Shown here: positions 5,452 through 17,221 of the stretch, one piece after another | How the letters are laid out: each line of letters begins with the position of its first letter | How positions within the stretch are numbered: the stretch's first letter is position 1 | DNA from: Irineochytrium annulatum | Lineage: Eukaryota; Chytridiomycota; Chytridiomycetes; Chytridiales; Chytridiaceae | Length of the DNA: 17,221 bases | Reading direction: 5' to 3' | NCBI GenBank assembly: GCA_027600665.1 | Contig: JADGJL010000612.1 | Location: 1-17,221, forward strand | Notes under the pieces: model-generated | The model's input: the letters and a program-made list of their open reading frames with translations, nothing else | The model's database searches: none | Told to the model about the DNA's origin: nothing | Made by a program: the position numbers and the translations under genes

Positions 5452-7438
5452 TTAGACCGGAAGCAGCTGGGGCGCGACATCGATGAACGAGTAAATGTCG
5501 TTCCAAAACTGGCATTTGGCTTGCATGCCCGCGTCCGCCACGGCGGTATAGAACGGAGCGGCCGTCAGGGCCGATGGGCCATCGAACCTGAGCATCTGCC
5601 CGCCGCCGTTGTTGAGCGCAAGATTCTTCTTGTACTCCGGCCACGGGCCGCCGCCTGTCATGAGCTTCACACCGACGTTCGGGTCACCGGTGGTGGCGAA
5701 GTTAACCCAGCCCTGGCTGACGGACGCGCCGAAGGCCGTCTCGGTGCGAAGCATGAACCTCGTGTTGTTAAAGACGAAGGGGATCTCGGCCCCGTCGAAG
5801 ATACCGAGCCTTTCCCTGAAGATTCTTGGATCCTCAATCAGCTTCTTGACCAGGTTGGGGACATAGTTCCACTGGTACTTGTAGACGGCGTGAGGGTTGG
5901 TCGCGGTCGAGAGGGCGTCCGCAAGGGCGCGGGCTGAGCATCCCCAGACGGCGTCGCCGAAGATATTGGCAGAGATAACGAAGGCGTCGTAGTCCGTGGT
6001 CGGGAGGCCTCCGTAGAGTGTGATGATTTGGTTGTACTGGGCCCCGGATAATCCGGGGAATTGGAATGCGAGCCAGAACTGGAACTCATCCGTCGATGTG
6101 ACACCCGTAAAGATGGTACCTGATCATATAATTAGTTTCTGGGAGGAACAGGAAGGACGGAGAGCGCCACCGATATTTCACCTTCGTTAACGGTGGTGCC
6201 GACGATGACTGGGACGCTGGCAAAGTTCTTCTGCGCCGCAAGGTTTATCGGCTTGTCCAGGAGAACTACACCGTCAATTATGGGCTGGTACAAGTATCCG
6301 TACGCCTCCGTCACTTTTACATCCGCCTGAGCCAGAGCGATGGCGGGAATGCTTCTTAGGCAGGCGAGAGTGATAGCCGAAGCGGCAGCCGAAGCATCGG
6401 GTGAAGGGCAGCCGACCTCGAGGGCGAGGGCCTTGTAGAGCGGCTGCAGCTCGAGCGCATGAACGCCCTCGAAGAAGACGGGGCCTGTTAACAAAATAAT
6501 CTATCAGAGTACGGCGGATGTACGAACGATCGGTTTGCCCTTACCCGACTCAATGATGGCTTGGTCGAAAACCGGGCCGACGGCCGTGAAAAGATGGGTC
6601 GCGATACTGATAGCGCCGGCCATCTGGCCCCACGCAGTGACCTTGTTTGGGTTGCCACCGAACTTGGCAATGTGCGTCTTCACCCTGCGTAAGAGTATGC
6701 AGTGAGCGAGAGGGAACAACGAGGCGGTGTAAAATGCTAAGCGTACCACTGCAGAGCCATCCTTTGGTCAAGAAGTCCCACGTTGGTGTTGCCTTCGGCA
6801 ATCAAAGAGTCCGAAGCCAACCAACCGAAGGCGCCGAGCCGGTAGTTGATCGAGACGAAAATCACGTCGCTGTATTCGAGCAGGTGCGTGGGGTCATATA
6901 CCTCCTGGTCGGCCGAACCATCGGTGAAGCCTCCTGTTCCTGTAAAAAGAGTTAGGGTGTACAACCATATCAACGTTGACTGCAGGCAGAGAGATAGAAC
7001 CGCGTACCTCCGTGGATCCACACCATGACGGGCAGGTCATCAGACGCCACCACGCCCTTCGGCGCATATACGTTCAGATACAGGCAGTCCTCAGAAATCG
7101 TGAGGGGCCCATGCAGCGACGGGATCTGCGGGCAGCCGGGGCCGAAGGCGTTCGCGTTGATGGAGCCAAGCTGGGTCGTGATGCTTACGGGGGCCTTGAA
7201 GCGCAGGTCGTTAATTGGCGCGACGGCGTACGGGATCCCGAGCCAATTCACGACGCCCTTGTCGCTGACGAAGCCGGTAACCTGAGCCTGAATTGGCGGA
7301 ACGCGGTGGTTAGACGCGGCAGGGATGGGACGGGCCTCGACTTACGTATCCGACATCGACAGTAAGCGGCTGGGAGAAACCGGCGTAGACGGCGGGCAGG
7401 AGTGCCAGGAGTACGGTGGAAGCGAGGCGAACGAGCAT
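5452..7438 (-). CDS. Secreted type-B carboxylesterase-fold protein, apparently catalytically inactive
   Basis: Six exons, 7438-7346, 7287-7008, 6939-6747, 6684-6545, 6484-6182 and 6119-5452, join in frame to 558 aa, the usual length for the carboxylesterase/cholinesterase (COesterase) family. Residues 1-19 form a signal peptide (hydrophobic core LLALLPAVYA), so the product should enter the secretory pathway. Family landmarks are present: GIPYA, SEDCLYLNVY, WIHGG (121-125), NYRLGAFGWL, GLLDQRMALQW, FGGNP, NEGTIF, and DGAEIPFVF near the end. The nucleophile elbow, normally GESAG, reads GQMAG with Met at 210. The catalytic His position holds Asp at 445. The acidic residue Glu336 is kept. Hydrolase activity is therefore not expected. 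Intact splice sites, signal peptide and frame argue against a decaying pseudogene. A binding or adhesion role, as in other inactive members of the fold, is conceivable but unproven. Confidence 0.88.
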
Positions 7439-8226: not shown

Positions 8227-8854
8227 TCAACCCCGACCACCAATCCCTTCGATGCCGGTTTGCCCATTCTCGATTACCCCCGCGCCCTTGACATCCACTT
8301 CCATAGCGTCAACCCGTGCCACATCCTGCTGCAACATTCCGACGCCCACAGCTCCCGCAACACCGTCTTCTCCACCGACGAACGTCGCGTCTCCTGACGT
8401 CGCGCGCCCCCCAACCTCCTCCTCAAACGGCCCTGGGTTCTTGGCTCGCCAATTGTGCCAATGAAAGAACTCTTTCTGGTGAATGAATTGGACGGTCGCC
8501 TCAGATGCCACGGCGGCGCGGAACTCCGGATGCTGAAGGTGGGAGAGCATCTCGAGGCAGTATGGATATCTGAAAGGTTCCAAATTGTGGGCAGAGAATA
8601 ATTGGAAGATTTGAAAATACTTACACTATATACTTGGCGTATGCCGGCTCGCGCCAGTAGTTGAGGTATTTGAGGTAGTTCAGGAATGCGGGATCATTGA
8701 AGTACCGGTTCTGGGCGAGGACTGCTCGGCACGTTGAATTCAAACGTGGATCCGGATAAGAAGACTTACATTGAAGGTATTTAGGGTTCGCGAGGCATTG
8801 CACAAACTCGAGCTCGCGCATCCATCGCAGGTTGCTGGTCTCGACACTCTCCAT
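8227..8854 (-). CDS. MED31: Mediator complex subunit 31 (Soh1)
   Basis: Exons 8854-8770, 8721-8625 and 8569-8227 join to 174 aa. The conserved MED31 core is unmistakable: [20 protein letters not shown], then [36 protein letters not shown], and [13 protein letters not shown]31 sits in the Mediator middle module near MED7 and supports RNA polymerase II transcription in the nucleus. The first in-frame ATG is at 8854; the open frame extends upstream only through non-ATG codons. Residues after about 115 form a Gly/Val-rich acidic tail absent from the compact family core. Intron 1 (48 nt) has no in-frame stop, so retention would insert 16 residues into the core. The gene is divergent from EAF6 with 44 bp between the start codons. 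Confidence 0.95.
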
Positions 8855-9780: not shown

Positions 9781-12700
9781 TTACTGTGAAACCGGGAGTG
9801 ATTCGTCGTGATTAGTACTAGCGGGTATAGGGAGAAATTCATATGTACGTCTTTCGTACTCGCCGACCGGCCCGAAGTCCGCTTTTTCGTTCCCTGCGAG
9901 CCCCTTAAAACATGAATAAGGGTGGCAATCGCGACGGGCTTTGCTTTTCTCCCTTCTATTTACATGAAGGAAGGGATGCATATGAGAACTTCCGATGGCA
10001 AAAGAAAACAAACCTTGCCCGGGCTACCCTTTAACGGCTCAATCACGCCGACGAGCGGGTTCTTGTTAAAAATCTTATTAAAGTTCGCCTCCCGGTTATT
10101 GAGTTCGAGCTTGCAGTAGTCAAGCTCCTCCGCGAGGGCAGCAGCGCGTCTTTTCCGCCTCCGGATATCCTCTTCCAAGTCCGCTATCCGCTGCAAGTCG
10201 ACTTCCCTCGGCTCGCGATTTATATACTTCAAATCGGCGTCCTGAAGCTGCTTCGCCTGGTTCGCGATCTGCTTCTTCAAGAAGGTTTGCGCTCTGAGGA
10301 CAAAAATATATCAACGCTCACGGAATGGAATCGATATGCGAAGTAGCGCCGAGTTGGCACACGTACTTTTCAAACTCGGTAAGCATTTTCTGCGCCTCGG
10401 CAAGGTGATCTTCATTGACCTGCCGGATATTTTCCACCGCTTCAGCCGCGAGCTCAGCCTCCCTGCTTTGAAGCTCCCGCTCGCTGTCGATCCGCAGTTG
10501 TTCAATCTCCTTCTCCTTCCGCTGGAGCTCGCGGTCAAGAGCGTACACCTTGTCCTTCAGCGTAGAAATATCTTGCCGCAAACTGGCCGCGGTGGCCTTG
10601 TAAAAAAAAAAAAAAAAAATAAAAGAAAGAAAGAAAGAAATTAGCGTAACTGCTCTTACGAGCGCACAATTGGTTCTTTTTGTTTCCATACCTCATGCGC
10701 CTTGATAACGTCCTTCAGCCCGTCAATCTCCTTCATCCGTATCGCCATCCTCCCGTCATGTTCGTCCCCAAGCGCCCGAAGGTCCGCCATCCTCTGAATG
10801 TTCATGTTGAGGACGACCTTCGCCGTCTCCTCGACGTGCGCCTCGATGCACTTCTCCAACTCAATCTCCGCCTCCTTCTTTGTCTTCGCGACCTCCGCAA
10901 ATCTGGCGCTCTCGGCGTCCCGCTTGAGCGCCAGCGTGTTAATGGTGTTCTGCTGTCGGATCTCGTCGAGCTGGCGCTTCTGGCTCGACTCGAGCTCGGC
11001 GAGCTGCTGTTTATGCTTTCGCTCAAGGTTCTGAAGAGCGATCGTCGACGAGACTTTAAGCTGGTTTTCACGCGTCGAGGCGTCGAACTCGAGCTGGCGG
11101 CGCTCGGTCTCGAGGGTGGCCGTGTGGGTCTGGTTCATGAACGACACCACGCGCGAATGTTCCTATGATTGCGTGGTTGCATAAGCGCGAATTCGAAGAG
11201 AGAAATGTCATTTCGTAAAATTACCTCCTTGAGGTCGACAACAGCTTTCAAAAGCGATCCCTTCTCCTCCCCTGAAAGTGCGATTTGATCATCGAGCATC
11301 TTCTTTGTCGCTTCCCACTCCTCGGCCGCCGCGTTGTTCGCGTCTGTCACAACCTGCATCTTCTCCGCAAACTCGGCTTCTGCTTTTTGCAGTGCCGCCT
11401 GAGGATAGGAAATCAATTAGCAACGATATCATATGCACGCATGACTGGCTGGCAAGATAACCTACAAGTTGGGCACGGTGATGTTCAAGAGTAAGTGTGT
11501 CGCGAAGACCTTCCATCTCGCGCGTGTGTTCGACGGCCCTTGTTTTTTTGGTTAAAGATCATTACATCTACCGAATAACGCAGGTCACTCACATTGTCTC
11601 CTGTAGCTCGATTTTTTCCTTCCGGAAGACCTCGTTCATCTCCGCCCGGATCTGATCATCAATCCTGACCATCTTCTGGAACAAGTCCGCCTTGTCGTCT
11701 TCAAGCTTTTTTACCGTTTGCTCCAACCGCTAAGAACGCCAGCGACGAGTTTAGATTGTCCGAATTTCGTCGAAATCGACATAAAATGAAAGCTACTACT
11801 TACATGAACCTTATCGTTTAACCTAGCGATCTCCTTCACCTTCTCGCTCAGCACCCCCTCGGTCTCAACGAGTCTCGTCCTGACGCCCTCCCGCTCCCCT
11901 TCCACCCTCTTAATCTCCGCCTTTAGCTCCCCCCGTTCGACAGCAAACCTCTCGTCCGCCGCCCTCCGCTCCGCCTCCATCTTCTCGTACAGGTGCGCAA
12001 TCTCGGCCTTCAGCTTCAGTCGGACGTCTTCCATCTCGCGCCGGACGTCTTGGAGCATCTTTTCGTATGAGGCCCTTTGACCGTCGAGCTCGGCAGTGAA
12101 ACGAGCTGTAAGCTCGTTTTCAAGACGGAGGAGGGCTTCTTGTTTATCCTAAGTAACGTGAGGAAAGTTACAATACCCGACCCTGACCTCCAGCATATCG
12201 ATTCGCATCTGTTCCATTTCAGCAATCACTTCCTTGTGGGCTCGATCTAAGAAGGCGACATTAAGACGCAGGTAACAACACATCTAGGACACGCACCGCT
12301 CTCGACTTTCGCAACAATGGCGTCGGCCTTCTCACGTGTCAACTCCTGGATCTTGTCATTGAGCTCCCGGATGGTGCTGTAGTTGTGGATTGTTAAAAGC
12401 CGAGAACTTTTTTTTAGTCCCCCAACCTGAGCGCGGACTCCAGGTTCGATGTCAGGTTCGCGACCTCTGCCTGAGTCTTCTCGAGCAGTTCCTCGGACGC
12501 ATGCATCCTCTCGTCCGTTAGAGCCTGAACTCGCACGCGCTCCGCCACGTCCTCCTCAGCTGCCGCGAGCGTCTGAACTGTTCGCGGGAAGTGAGGTGTT
12601 TTAGCGACTCTGTGGAGCAACGCTAAGCAGGGCACGGGAGCTTCGACTCACTGGTTTCGTGCAGCTTCGCAGAGGTGAGCGTGAGTTCCTAAATTACCGC

Positions 12701-14185
12701 ACGTAAGCTCCACAATTATACTAAAGCAACGAGGGAAGACAATGGGTAAAACAGTCGACCTTTTTGTATGTGTCCGCGCGCATCGTTTCGGACTGGACCT
12801 GGTACTCGAGGTTTGCCGTCTTAACGGCTCTGTCCTCGACCTCCTGGAGCAGTGCGTGGATCGAGGCGTCCTTTCTACGTACCAATTTACCCGCGGTAAG
12901 TTCGATAGCGCCTCACACCGAAGAAAGAAAAAATCACTGGCACTCAACTGGTGAATAACCTCCTGCGCTTCAACATACTTATTCGTCATTTGGTCAAGCG
13001 AAACTTGAAGCTTTTATCACGTTACTTTCAACCATCGCTGCGCGGAAACCAAAATAGAAAACCACCTACCCGAGACACGTCGTCATTTAGTTTCTTCTCC
13101 GTATCGTCTAACGTCACGGCCGCCTCCTTCAGCCGCTGATCATAATGCCCCCTCAAATCTTTATTTTCCACAAGTGCACTCCTCAACTGCTCCTCAACCT
13201 AACCAAATCCGTCAATACCCGCAATGCTCTCCTCACCCTCATATCTCTGCGCACGAAACTCACAATCTTAACCCTCTCCATCAGCGAATCCTTGATCTTC
13301 TCGTCCGTGATATTATCCGCCTGCTGCCTCAACTTGCTCTTATGCTCCGCCTCCATCTTCTCAATCTTCTCCGCGTGCTCCGCCTCCATCTCCTTCATCC
13401 GCCGCTGGTAGTCCACCACAAGGCCCGACACTTCCTCCTCGTGCTCGGCACGGAGCTCGTGTGCGGATTCGACCAGCTCTTTTGAGGCTTTCGCGAGGCT
13501 TTTGGAGTGACTTGACTCCATTTCGTGGTAATTACTGGATTCACACGATCAGACGGGCCGCCGGACATAATATTCAAAATGCCCCAACCTCTCCAGCTTC
13601 TCATATCGCGCCCGCAGGTCCTTCTCCTCCTCCTTTACCGCGTGGATCTCGGCCTCGTTGGCCGCGATCGTCTCAAGGTACGTTTGGATGACGTCCTCGT
13701 GCGCCTGCAGCCGGATCGTACTCTCCTCCAACCGGCCCTGCAGGTCCTGGATCTGCCCCGTCCCATCTCGTATTGCCTAGCGTATCAACACACATGGCGT
13801 TATACTCCCTCCACCATGACCGCAAAAACGAAACGTAATCGACAACGGACCTCGGAAAGCTCATCTTCATAGGCGTCGATCAGGCTCTGGACCTCCACGT
13901 TGTGATCCTCGTTCTTTGTGTTAAGATAGTAGATGACCTTGGTCAACTGCGCAATCTTCTTCGACATCTTGTAGACCACTGCAATGTCATGCAACAAACG
14001 CTCCGTCAGCACTCTCCCTCTATACAAAGGCAGTCCGCAAGCAAGGCCCCACCATCTGGAGGAGCCTGGATCCCCTTTGGGCCCGGCCCGCCAGACGCAA
14101 TGGCCCCGTTCGACCCGGACGCTTCGTCGGTCTTCCGCCGGCCGGACCGCACTCGGGCCCGGCCGCTCGAGTTATTCGACGACAT
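9781..14185 (-). CDS. FAM184-family coiled-coil protein
   Basis: Proposed exons: 14185-14026, 13978-13851, 13776-13589, 13534-13264, 13198-13070, 13010-12949, 12874-12760, 12688-12652, 12577-12427, 12376-12297, 12246-12188, 12148-11804, 11729-11593, 11538-11466, 11398-11225, 11162-10692, 10596-10367, 10293-10014 and 9903-9781, giving about 1070 aa, close to animal FAM184A (about 1140). Both conserved ends are present: MSKKIAQLTKVIYYLNTKN from residue 58, and LELNNREANFNKIF followed by VGVIEPL near residue 1020. Between them lies almost continuous Glu/Lys/Gln-rich coiled coil. The first 55 residues are Ser/Gly/Pro-rich and probably disordered. Function is poorly known; a cytoskeletal or flagellar role in a zoosporic fungus is only inference. 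Introns run 39-110 nt. Two junctions are uncertain: exon 6/7 (12949/12874) and the final intron, where acceptors at 9904 and 9894 compete. The stop at 9783-9781 is the same in both C-terminal models. Confidence 0.82.
10602..10640. repeat. A18 run plus GAAA repeats in a FAM184 intron
   Basis: Eighteen A are followed by a short GAAA tandem, all inside the 95-nt intron 10691-10597. On the sense strand this is a TTTC-rich then T18 tract directly upstream of the AAG acceptor, so it probably acts as the polypyrimidine tract. Confidence 0.85.
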
Positions 14186-14878: not shown

Positions 14879-17093
14879 CTACTTCGAGATCGACCTCTCC
14901 TTATGCCACTGCACCGTGATAACACTTGCCCCACACTCCCGATCCACCCAAAGCTTCATAGCCGTGTTCCCATAAAAGCCCGCCCCCATGACTACCGCGT
15001 CCCCTGGCTCCCCAGCCGCCTCCTTACACTTCGTCATAACGCTCTGAACCGGGGCGCCCGTCTCGCACTCCTCGAAGTCCACCGTTCCACCGCGCACGGC
15101 GCCCTGCAACGCCTTACCGGCAGCGGCGAGGTACGCGCGATCGGCCTCGACGGCGGTGGCGTCGAGACCCACGGGGATAAGGTGGAGGACAAATAGGCGG
15201 ACGCCGGAGCGACATCCCTTCGCCATGTGGGCGGCGACGTGAAGGGCCTCGCGGTCGTCGGCGGACCCAAGGAAGGGGACAAAGATGCGCTGGGTGGCCT
15301 CCCCGGGGCGGGTGGACTCGTCGTCGTCGTCGTCCTCGGCCTCGTCCGTCGATGAATTGTTGTCGGCATTCGTCACGGCGAGCCGCTTAGACTCGCTGGG
15401 GTTTGATGAGGAGTTCCCCCGCTTCCGGTTCAACTCGCGGAGAACTCCGAAGCCGCGGTCGATAAAGACGGCGACGGAGCACCGGGCTTCGCGCTGGACG
15501 GCGTCGACCAGGGAGTGGATGTGGGCCTCGTCGACCAAGGAGGACATCTCAGCCGAGTGCTGCCAGGGGATGACGACGAGATTCGATTCGTGGTCGTCCG
15601 CGGCGGACGCGATCTGGTCCGGGAACTCCTCGATGTTCGCAACGGCCAAGACGGAGGCAACGGGGATGCGGTTCAGATGGCCGAAGGTGCGATAGATGGA
15701 CATGACGGGGTCGGCGCGAAGCGTGGCGTCGGTGTCCGTTGCCATCATGACGGTCGAGATACGATCGGAGAGGCGAATGAGGCGGAGGGCGACGACCTTC
15801 ATCATTGCCCCGGGGTGGTTGAGCATCTCGGTGAGAGCCATCATGGAGGGGACGGCGGGCATACCGGGGAGGTAGCAGAGGAGACGCAAGGGGCGAGGGT
15901 TGAAGGAGTCGGAGAGCTTAGAGAGGGCGATAGCGCCTTTATCGTCGTCGGTTTCCGCGCCGTTAGTGGTGGGTTGGGAGGACTTTTTCAAGGATTTGGG
16001 GAGGATGAAGGAGAGCAAGGGAATCGAGAGCACGTTCGAGAAGAGGACGGCGATGATGAGGATGGTAAAGACTTTAGCGTTGATGACCTCGGCCTTGACG
16101 CCGATGTTGAGGATGACGAACTCAAGAAGACTATTATAATGATTGCGTTTTAGATGTGTAATTATGCAAAGAAGGCACTTTTTAAGACCTACCCCTTGGT
16201 GTTCATGAGGAAACCCATGCCGGCCGACTCCATCCAGCTAAGCTTGGACTTATAAAGACGCGATGCTAAGAAGACGCCCAAAATCTTCCCGAAACTCCCG
16301 ATAACGACAAGAAGGACCACGAGGCCCCACGACTCGCCGTCATTCATGAGATCTACACGTGCGCTCAGACCGACATCAACGAAGAACTATTTACGAGGCG
16401 TTATAAAATCGTTCCAAAGCAAGGACATAAAAAAAGTCCACTCACGATAGGCAAGAACACAATGTTAATCATATCCTCCAAATTCTCCACCAGATGAATG
16501 GCAAACGAATGACCATGAGGCACGATGACACCCACCAGAAACCCCCCAAACATGGCATGCGCGCCAAGAGCCTGCGTGAAGAACGCCGAGATCAACACCA
16601 TGGCCAGCACCCCAAACACCAGAATCCCCTGCGCTGCATTATCAGCACCATGCGCGTGCTCGACCCACCGCGCGAGCACGGGTCGAACAAGGAACCACAG
16701 GAAGGCGGCGTAGGCGATCATGACGAGGAAGATCCACAGCGCCACGATCTGGTGCGCCGTGTTGTTCACGAGCGCGATGACGAAGAGGAGGAACCCCCAG
16801 GCGATCACGTCGTCCACGGATGCGGCGGCCATCGTGGCCTGCCCAAGGGGATGGTTGAGGAGCTTCCGTTCCGTCAGGATGCGCGCGATGGCCGGGAAGT
16901 GCGTGAGGGACATGACGGCGGCGACAAAGACGAAGAAGACGGTGTAAGATGTCCCCGGGTCGGCGAAGTCGTTGAAGAGGACGGTGGCGGCGCCGATGGA
17001 GGCAACGAAGGGGACGGTGATGCCCGCGACGGAGACGACGACGGAGCGGCGAAAGTTCCGGAGGAAGCGGTGAGGGTCTAATTCCAGGCCGAC
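14879..17093 (-). CDS. KHA1: Kha1-like K+/H+ antiporter (CPA2 family), 5' part outside the window
   Basis: Exons 17093-16446, 16386-16193 and 16130-14879 give the C-terminal 697 residues; the start and first membrane segments lie beyond the right edge. The fragment opens with VGLELDP and contains the core transport segments: THFPAIARILTE, then the VDDVIAW motif (the aspartate pair typical of the ion path), FFTQALGAHAMFGGFLVGVI, FLPIFFVDVGLS, GKILGVFLASRL and NTKGLLEFVILNIG. A cytosolic tail of about 360 residues carries two Usp-like halves, PLRLLCYLPGMPAVPSM and RIFVPFLGSADDREA, joined by an acidic linker with five Asp, as in fungal Kha1 and plant CHX proteins. Yeast Kha1 works in the Golgi in K+ and pH homeostasis; the same role is inferred here. 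The exon begins after an AAAAAG acceptor preceded by a pyrimidine tract and a CTAAT branch-like site. Confidence 0.9.
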
Positions 17094-17221
17094 CTTTTTG
17101 AAGGCGGGAGGGAAGGGATATCAATTAGTTGACAGAAGCGATCCACAGCATCTCCCCTAAATCTACCCTCGTTCCTATAAACAACCCGACCAAGCTCCTC
17201 ATCATCCTCCTCCCTTCCCTC
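17094..17221 (-). other. Probable intron at the truncated 5' side of the antiporter gene
   Basis: Upstream of the acceptor at 17094, the frame continuing into the antiporter meets a TGA within about 45 nt. No hydrophobic segment of the kind that precedes GLELD in the family is visible. The region is probably intronic, which would make this intron at least 128 nt, the longest here. An upstream exon ending in it cannot be excluded. Confidence 0.4.

Follow-up and report, generated by a model that had tools for sequence, protein, structure and literature searches.

In the chytrid Irineochytrium annulatum (Chytridiales in the NCBI taxonomy), a gene on the minus strand (7438-5452) of the window analysed here, the 17,221-nucleotide (nt) contig JADGJL010000612.1 (C671), encodes a protein with 100% identity to the deposited hypothetical protein HK101_009642 (P0001 in our alignments). 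We consider it probable that HK101_009642 represents a secreted pseudoenzyme with the carboxylesterase/cholinesterase fold, which was duplicated within a small chytrid esterase family and has been selectively kept for a binding role. The catalytic Ser and His have given way to Met and Asp, while the fold, the cysteines, a signal-like N-terminus and, at the likelier of two splice sites, the oxyanion loop are kept.

Replacement of the catalytic Ser and His

The family alignment was built from 308 proteins of database searches and three gene models of our own (311 in total), from which 21 proteins longer than 850 residues were removed to leave 290 rows. Met210 of HK101_009642 sits in the column of the nucleophile, which is Ser in 285 rows and Met, Glu, Ala, Arg or Gly in one row each. 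Asp445 sits in the column of the catalytic His, where 276 rows have His, nine Thr, two Gln, and one each Asp, Leu and Gly; the Gly row and one Gln row are P0006 and P0010, which had gaps there in an earlier alignment. Glu336 is retained in the acid column (Glu in 283 rows, Asp in seven). The three positions picked out by the original prediction are thus the triad columns of the family. Compared to an active type-B carboxylesterase, HK101_009642 has Met210 in place of the Ser of GxSxG and Asp445 in place of the His, and keeps the acid. As it has neither the nucleophile nor the base, it should not hydrolyse esters.

Both Ser and His are missing in only three of the 290 rows: HK101_009642, HK101_000267 (P0003) of the same genome, and P0293, a metagenome protein that carries no name beyond para-nitrobenzyl esterase. 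The active paralogs use TCG or TCC for the Ser and CAC for the His, from which Met210 and Asp445 require at least three nucleotide changes over the two codons. A single read error, which had been put forward as a possible refutation, is therefore unlikely.

Four of the five rows with a residue other than Ser at the nucleophile position (P0003, P0269, P0273 and P0293) carry a Ser one place later, in the form G-E/Q-x-S-G, an arrangement found in only five of the 285 Ser-bearing rows; P0269 (Grifola) and P0273 (Mycena) retain the His. This pattern, which might reflect a displaced nucleophile or a common route of loss, seems worth a look. For P0003 (GQESG) a displaced nucleophile was rejected, since neither the His nor the GxSxG pattern of flanking Gly residues survives in it; HK101_009642 has Ala one place after the nucleophile position, so the idea does not apply to it. 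Thr in the aligned His column, with Ser and acid kept, was found in P0204, P0234, P0244, P0247, P0286, P0289, P0295, P0301 and P0303, eight of which carry names (Aspergillus, Colletotrichum, Polyplosphaeria).

Overall fold and gene model

Comparison against PF00135 (COesterase) revealed one full-length domain, with a score of 331 bits (cut-off 27) and an E-value of 2.1e-98, spanning residues 26-502 and profile positions 4-489 of 515. The AlphaFold model displays a complete cholinesterase-type α/β fold with a predicted local distance difference test (pLDDT) score of 90.8, including a C-terminal helix (residues 536-548). The family assignment and fold of the original prediction are thereby upheld by the two checks it had proposed, a COesterase alignment and a fold model. 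All six cysteines are common to the 11 rows compared. Among the solved chains listed, the nearest sequence relatives are Aspergillus niger EstA (1ukc) and lipase 2 (1thg), presumably the Geotrichum enzyme, both of which have Ser at the nucleophile position, whereas HK101_009642 has Met.

The gene consists of six exons and five introns of 58-68 nt, all five with GT...AG borders, and the joined exons form a single open frame of 558 codons (as annotated) without internal stop. Signal peptides, transmembrane segments and C-terminal tails were judged by eye, here and below. The N-terminus has a basic n-region, a hydrophobic core and an A-x-A-like end (VYA), so that the signal peptide and intact frame claimed earlier were both found, the former as a signal-like N-terminus. 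At the other end the frame stops ten residues past the C-terminal helix without a hydrophobic tail, and no transmembrane segment or glycosylphosphatidylinositol (GPI)-like tail was seen. The guanine-plus-cytosine content (GC) by codon position is 0.59/0.44/0.77, and a TATA-like TATTAAAAGG lies about 60 nt upstream of the ATG. To judge from these sequence features, the frame, the splice sites, the codon-position GC and the TATA-like element look like those of a live gene.

The gene had also been described as correctly spliced, which probably holds for the gene itself but not for its annotated model, in which the oxyanion loop is two residues longer owing to the acceptor chosen for intron 2. The annotated acceptor (after 6940) yields HGGTGGF, and the second AG of CAGGAACAG (after 6934), 6 nt downstream, yields the ordinary HGGGF and a protein of 556 residues. 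The oxyanion stretch that runs from this His to the TDG glycine has 8 residues in 288 of the 290 rows and 9 in one, compared to 10 in the annotated HK101_009642, a length found in none of its 289 relatives. A spliced alignment of the window gene to P0002 likewise uses the acceptor after 6934; since the same alignment also shifts the intron 1 acceptor by 6 nt, where the annotated form is gap-free against P0002, we give more weight to the count of loop lengths. We regard the 556-residue form as likelier than the annotated 558 residues; given the acceptor after 6934, the oxyanion-loop glycines and Ala211 are retained.

Paralogs and relatives

The species has seven native-looking members of the family: the window gene, P0002, P0003 (HK101_000267, on contig C22), P0004 (on C205), C1028, C59 and C486, five of which have GESAG, the acid and the His intact. 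HK101_000267 reads GQESG, NDGS and GVRLSSE at the three sites. Like HK101_009642 it belongs to the COesterase family, has lost both Ser and His, and has an intact frame, with seven introns; this second paralog without the same two residues reinforces the earlier description of a protein whose triad is lost and whose remainder is intact. The two differ in that HK101_000267 has Ser replaced by Glu, Glu by Asp and His by Leu, in addition to a Ser/Thr-rich hydrophobic C-terminal tail that suggests a GPI anchor. Such GPI-like tails were seen in P0002, P0003, P0004 and C1028; HK101_009642 is likely released, because it lacks the tail that these four carry, and HK101_000267 is likely held at the surface.

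HK101_009642 is 39-44% identical to four of the active paralogs and 34% to C486. Protein identity among the paralogs is 33-54%, a divergence at which saturation of silent sites would be expected. No protein nearer than the same-genome paralogs was found among the matches listed (the best 120 of about 8,000 candidates per protein search), an absence of orthologs that is weakly shown, as the last listing added Blyttiomyces and Cladochytrium proteins missing from earlier ones. Named relatives from other species, chytrid or early-fungal, have Ser, acid and His intact in nine of nine cases: three from Synchytrium, two from Blyttiomyces, one from Cladochytrium, and one from Hyaloraphidium and two from Calcarisporiella, which we take to be chytrid or early-fungal relatives.

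As for P0002, searching the assembly did not recover its full gene (7862-base contig). A truncated piece of its C-terminus lies at C571:16860-17254, with parts 92% and 87% identical, and is likely a decayed duplicate of P0002 or a misassembly.

Further carboxylesterases on C226, C657 and C766 have their best alignment with P0011, a metagenome protein; their loci have a GC of 0.48, and GC at third codon positions is 0.51-0.56 in these matches versus 0.74-0.83 in the native members. The C226 and C766 matches are intron-free in our own models, and ketoacyl-synthase frames were also found on C766 and, in very long frames, on C325. Sequence composition and matches suggest that C226, C657 and C766 are bacterial contigs within the chytrid assembly.

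Constraint versus decay

Conservation was scored over 101 columns that are at least 85% conserved in 165 other rows, after 22 rows longer than 700 residues had been dropped. HK101_009642 keeps 80 of these columns, compared to 82-89 in the five active paralogs, 83-87 in three Synchytrium proteins and 81 in Calcarisporiella P0017. In a neutral simulation starting with Ser and His in place, only 4 of 1000 runs were stop-free once both codons had been replaced, with medians of 920 substitutions to that state versus 23 to the first stop. Pure neutral decay thus explains HK101_009642 poorly. Of the selection for a non-enzymatic role that the original prediction had claimed, the part that stands is that decay is unlikely, given the simulation, the 80 conserved columns, and the retained cysteines and fold.

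Several observations pull in the other direction. The simulation presumes a uniform substitution rate; the dead paralog P0003 keeps only 74 of the 101 columns; and no ortholog of HK101_009642 appeared among the matches listed. In relative-rate tests HK101_009642 evolved somewhat faster than the active paralogs in all five comparisons, significantly (p<0.05) in one (p = 0.041, 0.205, 0.075, 0.089 and 0.178). When P0004 served as the outgroup, P0003 likewise outpaced two active paralogs, P0002 (p = 0.012) and C1028 (p = 0.048); when P0001 took that place, it was not faster than P0002 (p = 0.77). The raised rate fits partly relaxed constraint, and if the triad was lost only recently, as it could have been, the conservation of the fold would be a relic of an active past. 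Taking both sides together, we read HK101_009642 as a protein whose fold is still under constraint, though the constraint has been somewhat relaxed or altered.

Number of losses

Trees of 20, 13 and 22 rows all joined P0003 with the active P0002 and C1028 (support 96/96, 95/95 and 91/88, respectively), and HK101_009642 fell outside this group in all three. Intron positions were compared in our own spliced models, not RNA, and without the P0002 gene. P0003 and C1028 share introns in phase at columns 89, 224, 387 and 604, of which those at 89, 387 and 604 are absent or one base off in the window gene; P0001 and P0003 share introns in phase at columns 53 and 224, and the P0001 intron at 387 is one base off. 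Trees and introns lead us to favour two separate triad losses, in P0001 and in P0003. A clade of P0001 and P0003 was recovered in 4% of 200 bootstrap trees of the 13-row set; when enforced, such a clade, and with it a single shared loss, was not rejected by the approximately unbiased test (p = 0.101 and 0.296).

Known inactive carboxylesterases

Fungal carboxylesterases without a working triad have already been published, and HK101_009642 is a further example; the original prediction held that a secreted fungal counterpart would be notable, but with these precedents it is not the first fungal case. In the parts of the source drawn on here, VdtD of Paecilomyces variotii is a carboxylesterase-like protein with Asp at the nucleophile position, whose disruption alters the atropisomer ratio of viriditoxin, and its authors proposed a dirigent-like role (PMC6600887). 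VdtD shares with HK101_009642 a fungal carboxylesterase-like sequence without the nucleophile, and its role is non-catalytic; it differs in having Ser replaced by Asp rather than Met and in lying within a polyketide cluster with a laccase. As far as the consulted text goes, HI914_00624 of Erysiphe necator belongs to a clade of 22 powdery-mildew carboxylesterases without Ser and His, is predicted to be secreted and has between 1 and 31 copies depending on the isolate (PMC10470754). HK101_009642 shares the loss of both residues and, with its signal-like N-terminus, probable secretion; the clade differs in that all of its 22 members come from powdery mildews, and the likeness to the chytrid protein is by description only.

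In animals, neuroligins, glutactin, gliotactin, neurotactin and the cholinesterase-like domain of thyroglobulin have the same fold, no functional triad and protein-binding roles, according to the sections of the review used here (PMC5943944). HK101_009642 resembles them in the lost triad on this fold; they are membrane-bound or part of a larger protein, whereas it shows no such attachment. No dead carboxylesterase from a chytrid was found in the open-licence literature, among the matches listed.

Proposed function and alternatives

HK101_009642 would be incapable of serine hydrolysis and selected for another function, most likely that of a soluble binder. The former active-site gorge, where Glu336 and Asp445 may present two carboxylates and no nucleophile, could hold a small molecule of ester-like or cationic nature; alternatively, the protein may dock a partner protein via the surface on which members of this fold commonly bind their partners, a possibility that overlaps with the partner-subunit and adhesion explanations below. 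HK101_000267, just as dead and probably tethered by a GPI anchor, would play a comparable part at the cell surface. A binding role, for a small molecule or a protein, seems the most economical explanation of the sequences. We give little credence to a more elaborate version, in which two secreted esterases of one genome turned independently into binding proteins. In both, the former triad would be left with two carboxylates (Glu336 and Asp445 in the one, Glu and Asp in the other) and neither nucleophile nor base, making up an anionic pocket that takes a cationic ligand or a metal, and the soluble and surface forms would work as a matched pair.

An unlikely alternative makes HK101_009642 a regulatory or scaffold subunit, which would pair with the active, probably GPI-anchored paralogs via a four-helix bundle and tune their stability, location or activity. 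Five triad-intact paralogs are available in the genome, with GPI-like tails on P0002, P0004 and C1028; the modelled C-terminal helix is present; and several members of the fold dimerise via such a bundle, in the parts of PMC5943944 drawn on. The large divergence from the active paralogs argues against it. We also find it unlikely, to a greater degree, that the gene is simply decaying, its catalysis having drifted away after duplication and its frame being intact as the loss is recent. The mildly raised rate and the lack, among the matches listed, of an ortholog to show long persistence fit such decay, but the 1677 nt are free of stops and frameshifts, none of the splice sites is broken, two catalytic codons took at least three nucleotide hits while the other conserved columns stayed near the active-paralog level, stop-free neutral runs are rare, and the probable decayed copy, the C571 piece of P0002, looks quite different.

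An adhesion protein akin to the animal neuroligin/glutactin group, the role raised in the original prediction, is one of several possible and is not singled out by our analysis; we hold it improbable. That group shares the fold and the triad loss (PMC5943944, as above), yet HK101_009642 lacks a transmembrane segment or GPI-like tail, no neuroligin was found among the 60 best of the 156 solved chains matching it, and Laminin_G_2, the type of the neurexin partner domain, gave one match in the assembly (C2, 29.9 bits, cut-off 22.9). It is quite improbable that HK101_009642 assists a secreted oxidase in a dirigent-like manner, in the way VdtD assists the laccase VdtB when viriditoxin is made. VdtD provides a functional precedent in fungi (PMC6600887, in part), and multicopper-oxidase domains matched at five places on four contigs of the genome; however, neither these nor any of the 20 ketoacyl-synthase matches in the assembly lie on C671, which ends with the 17-kb window, so that a setting like that of VdtD (a Cu-oxidase_3 or ketoacyl-synthase neighbour) was not found there, the domains seen among the six scanned window frames are C2H2 finger, mitochondrial carrier, Med31 and cation/H+ exchanger, and Met rather than Asp occupies the nucleophile position. 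It is highly improbable that HK101_009642 is still an enzyme with an altered mechanism based on the Glu336/Asp445 pair or water: the oxyanion-loop glycines and Ala211 are kept at the likelier splice site and carboxylates occupy two former triad positions, but neither nucleophile nor general base stands at its usual place. We know of no member of the carboxylesterase family that uses such a mechanism.

Features of the gene and its surroundings

The features of the HK101_009642 gene are listed in Table 1.

Table 1. Exons, splice acceptor, putative signal peptide and triad positions of the HK101_009642 gene in the window
Feature	Position	Strand	Remark
Exon 1	7346..7438	-	ATG start at 7438-7436; matches the deposited protein exactly
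Putative signal peptide, residues 1-19 (MLVRLASTVLLALLPAVYA)	7382..7438	-	Judged by eye
Exon 2	7008..7287	-	3' end within the oxyanion-loop motif (I-H-G-G)
Double acceptor CAGGAACAG, intron 2	6934..6942	-	Annotated after 6940; likely after 6934
Exon 3, annotated	6747..6939	-	Start probably 6933: two residues fewer, HGGGF restored
Exon 4	6545..6684	-	Carries the nucleophile elbow GQMAG
Met210 codon (ATG), nucleophile Ser position	6621..6623	-	Alignment column
Exon 5	6182..6484	-	
Glu336 codon (GAA), kept triad acid, NEGT	6183..6185	-	Alignment column
Exon 6	5452..6119	-	TAA at end; no GPI-like tail
Asp445 codon (GAC), catalytic His position	5794..5796	-	Alignment column

Pfam matches were obtained in five of the six other window frames scanned, comprising C2H2 zinc-finger, mitochondrial carrier, Med31-like, Na+/H+ exchanger and CHX/Usp-type domains. 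No biosynthetic cluster or partner is suggested near HK101_009642 within the 17-kb contig. Upstream of the carboxylesterase gene, 8227-8625 (minus strand) matches Med31 (SOH1) with 33.5 bits, in a region whose coding exons are apparently divided among several frames. Extended coiled-coil-like frames, recognized by eye, run over several exons at 9960-14171 (minus strand); the one piece scanned, 10656-11162, gave no Pfam match. Adjacent minus-strand frames at 14879-17120 contain a Na+/H+ exchanger domain and a CHX17/Usp-type domain and are probably parts of a single intron-bearing cation/H+ antiporter gene.

Implications

Animals have turned dead enzymes of the carboxylesterase fold into synaptic adhesion proteins, and moulds have made one into a protein that steers stereochemistry. 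Two dead copies in one chytrid, with active paralogs as natural controls, suggest that this step has been repeated in fungi, and the pair offers a tractable system for asking what dead carboxylesterases bind. Moreover, proteins called "carboxylesterase" in chytrid annotations, or counted as such in secretomes, need not have that activity.
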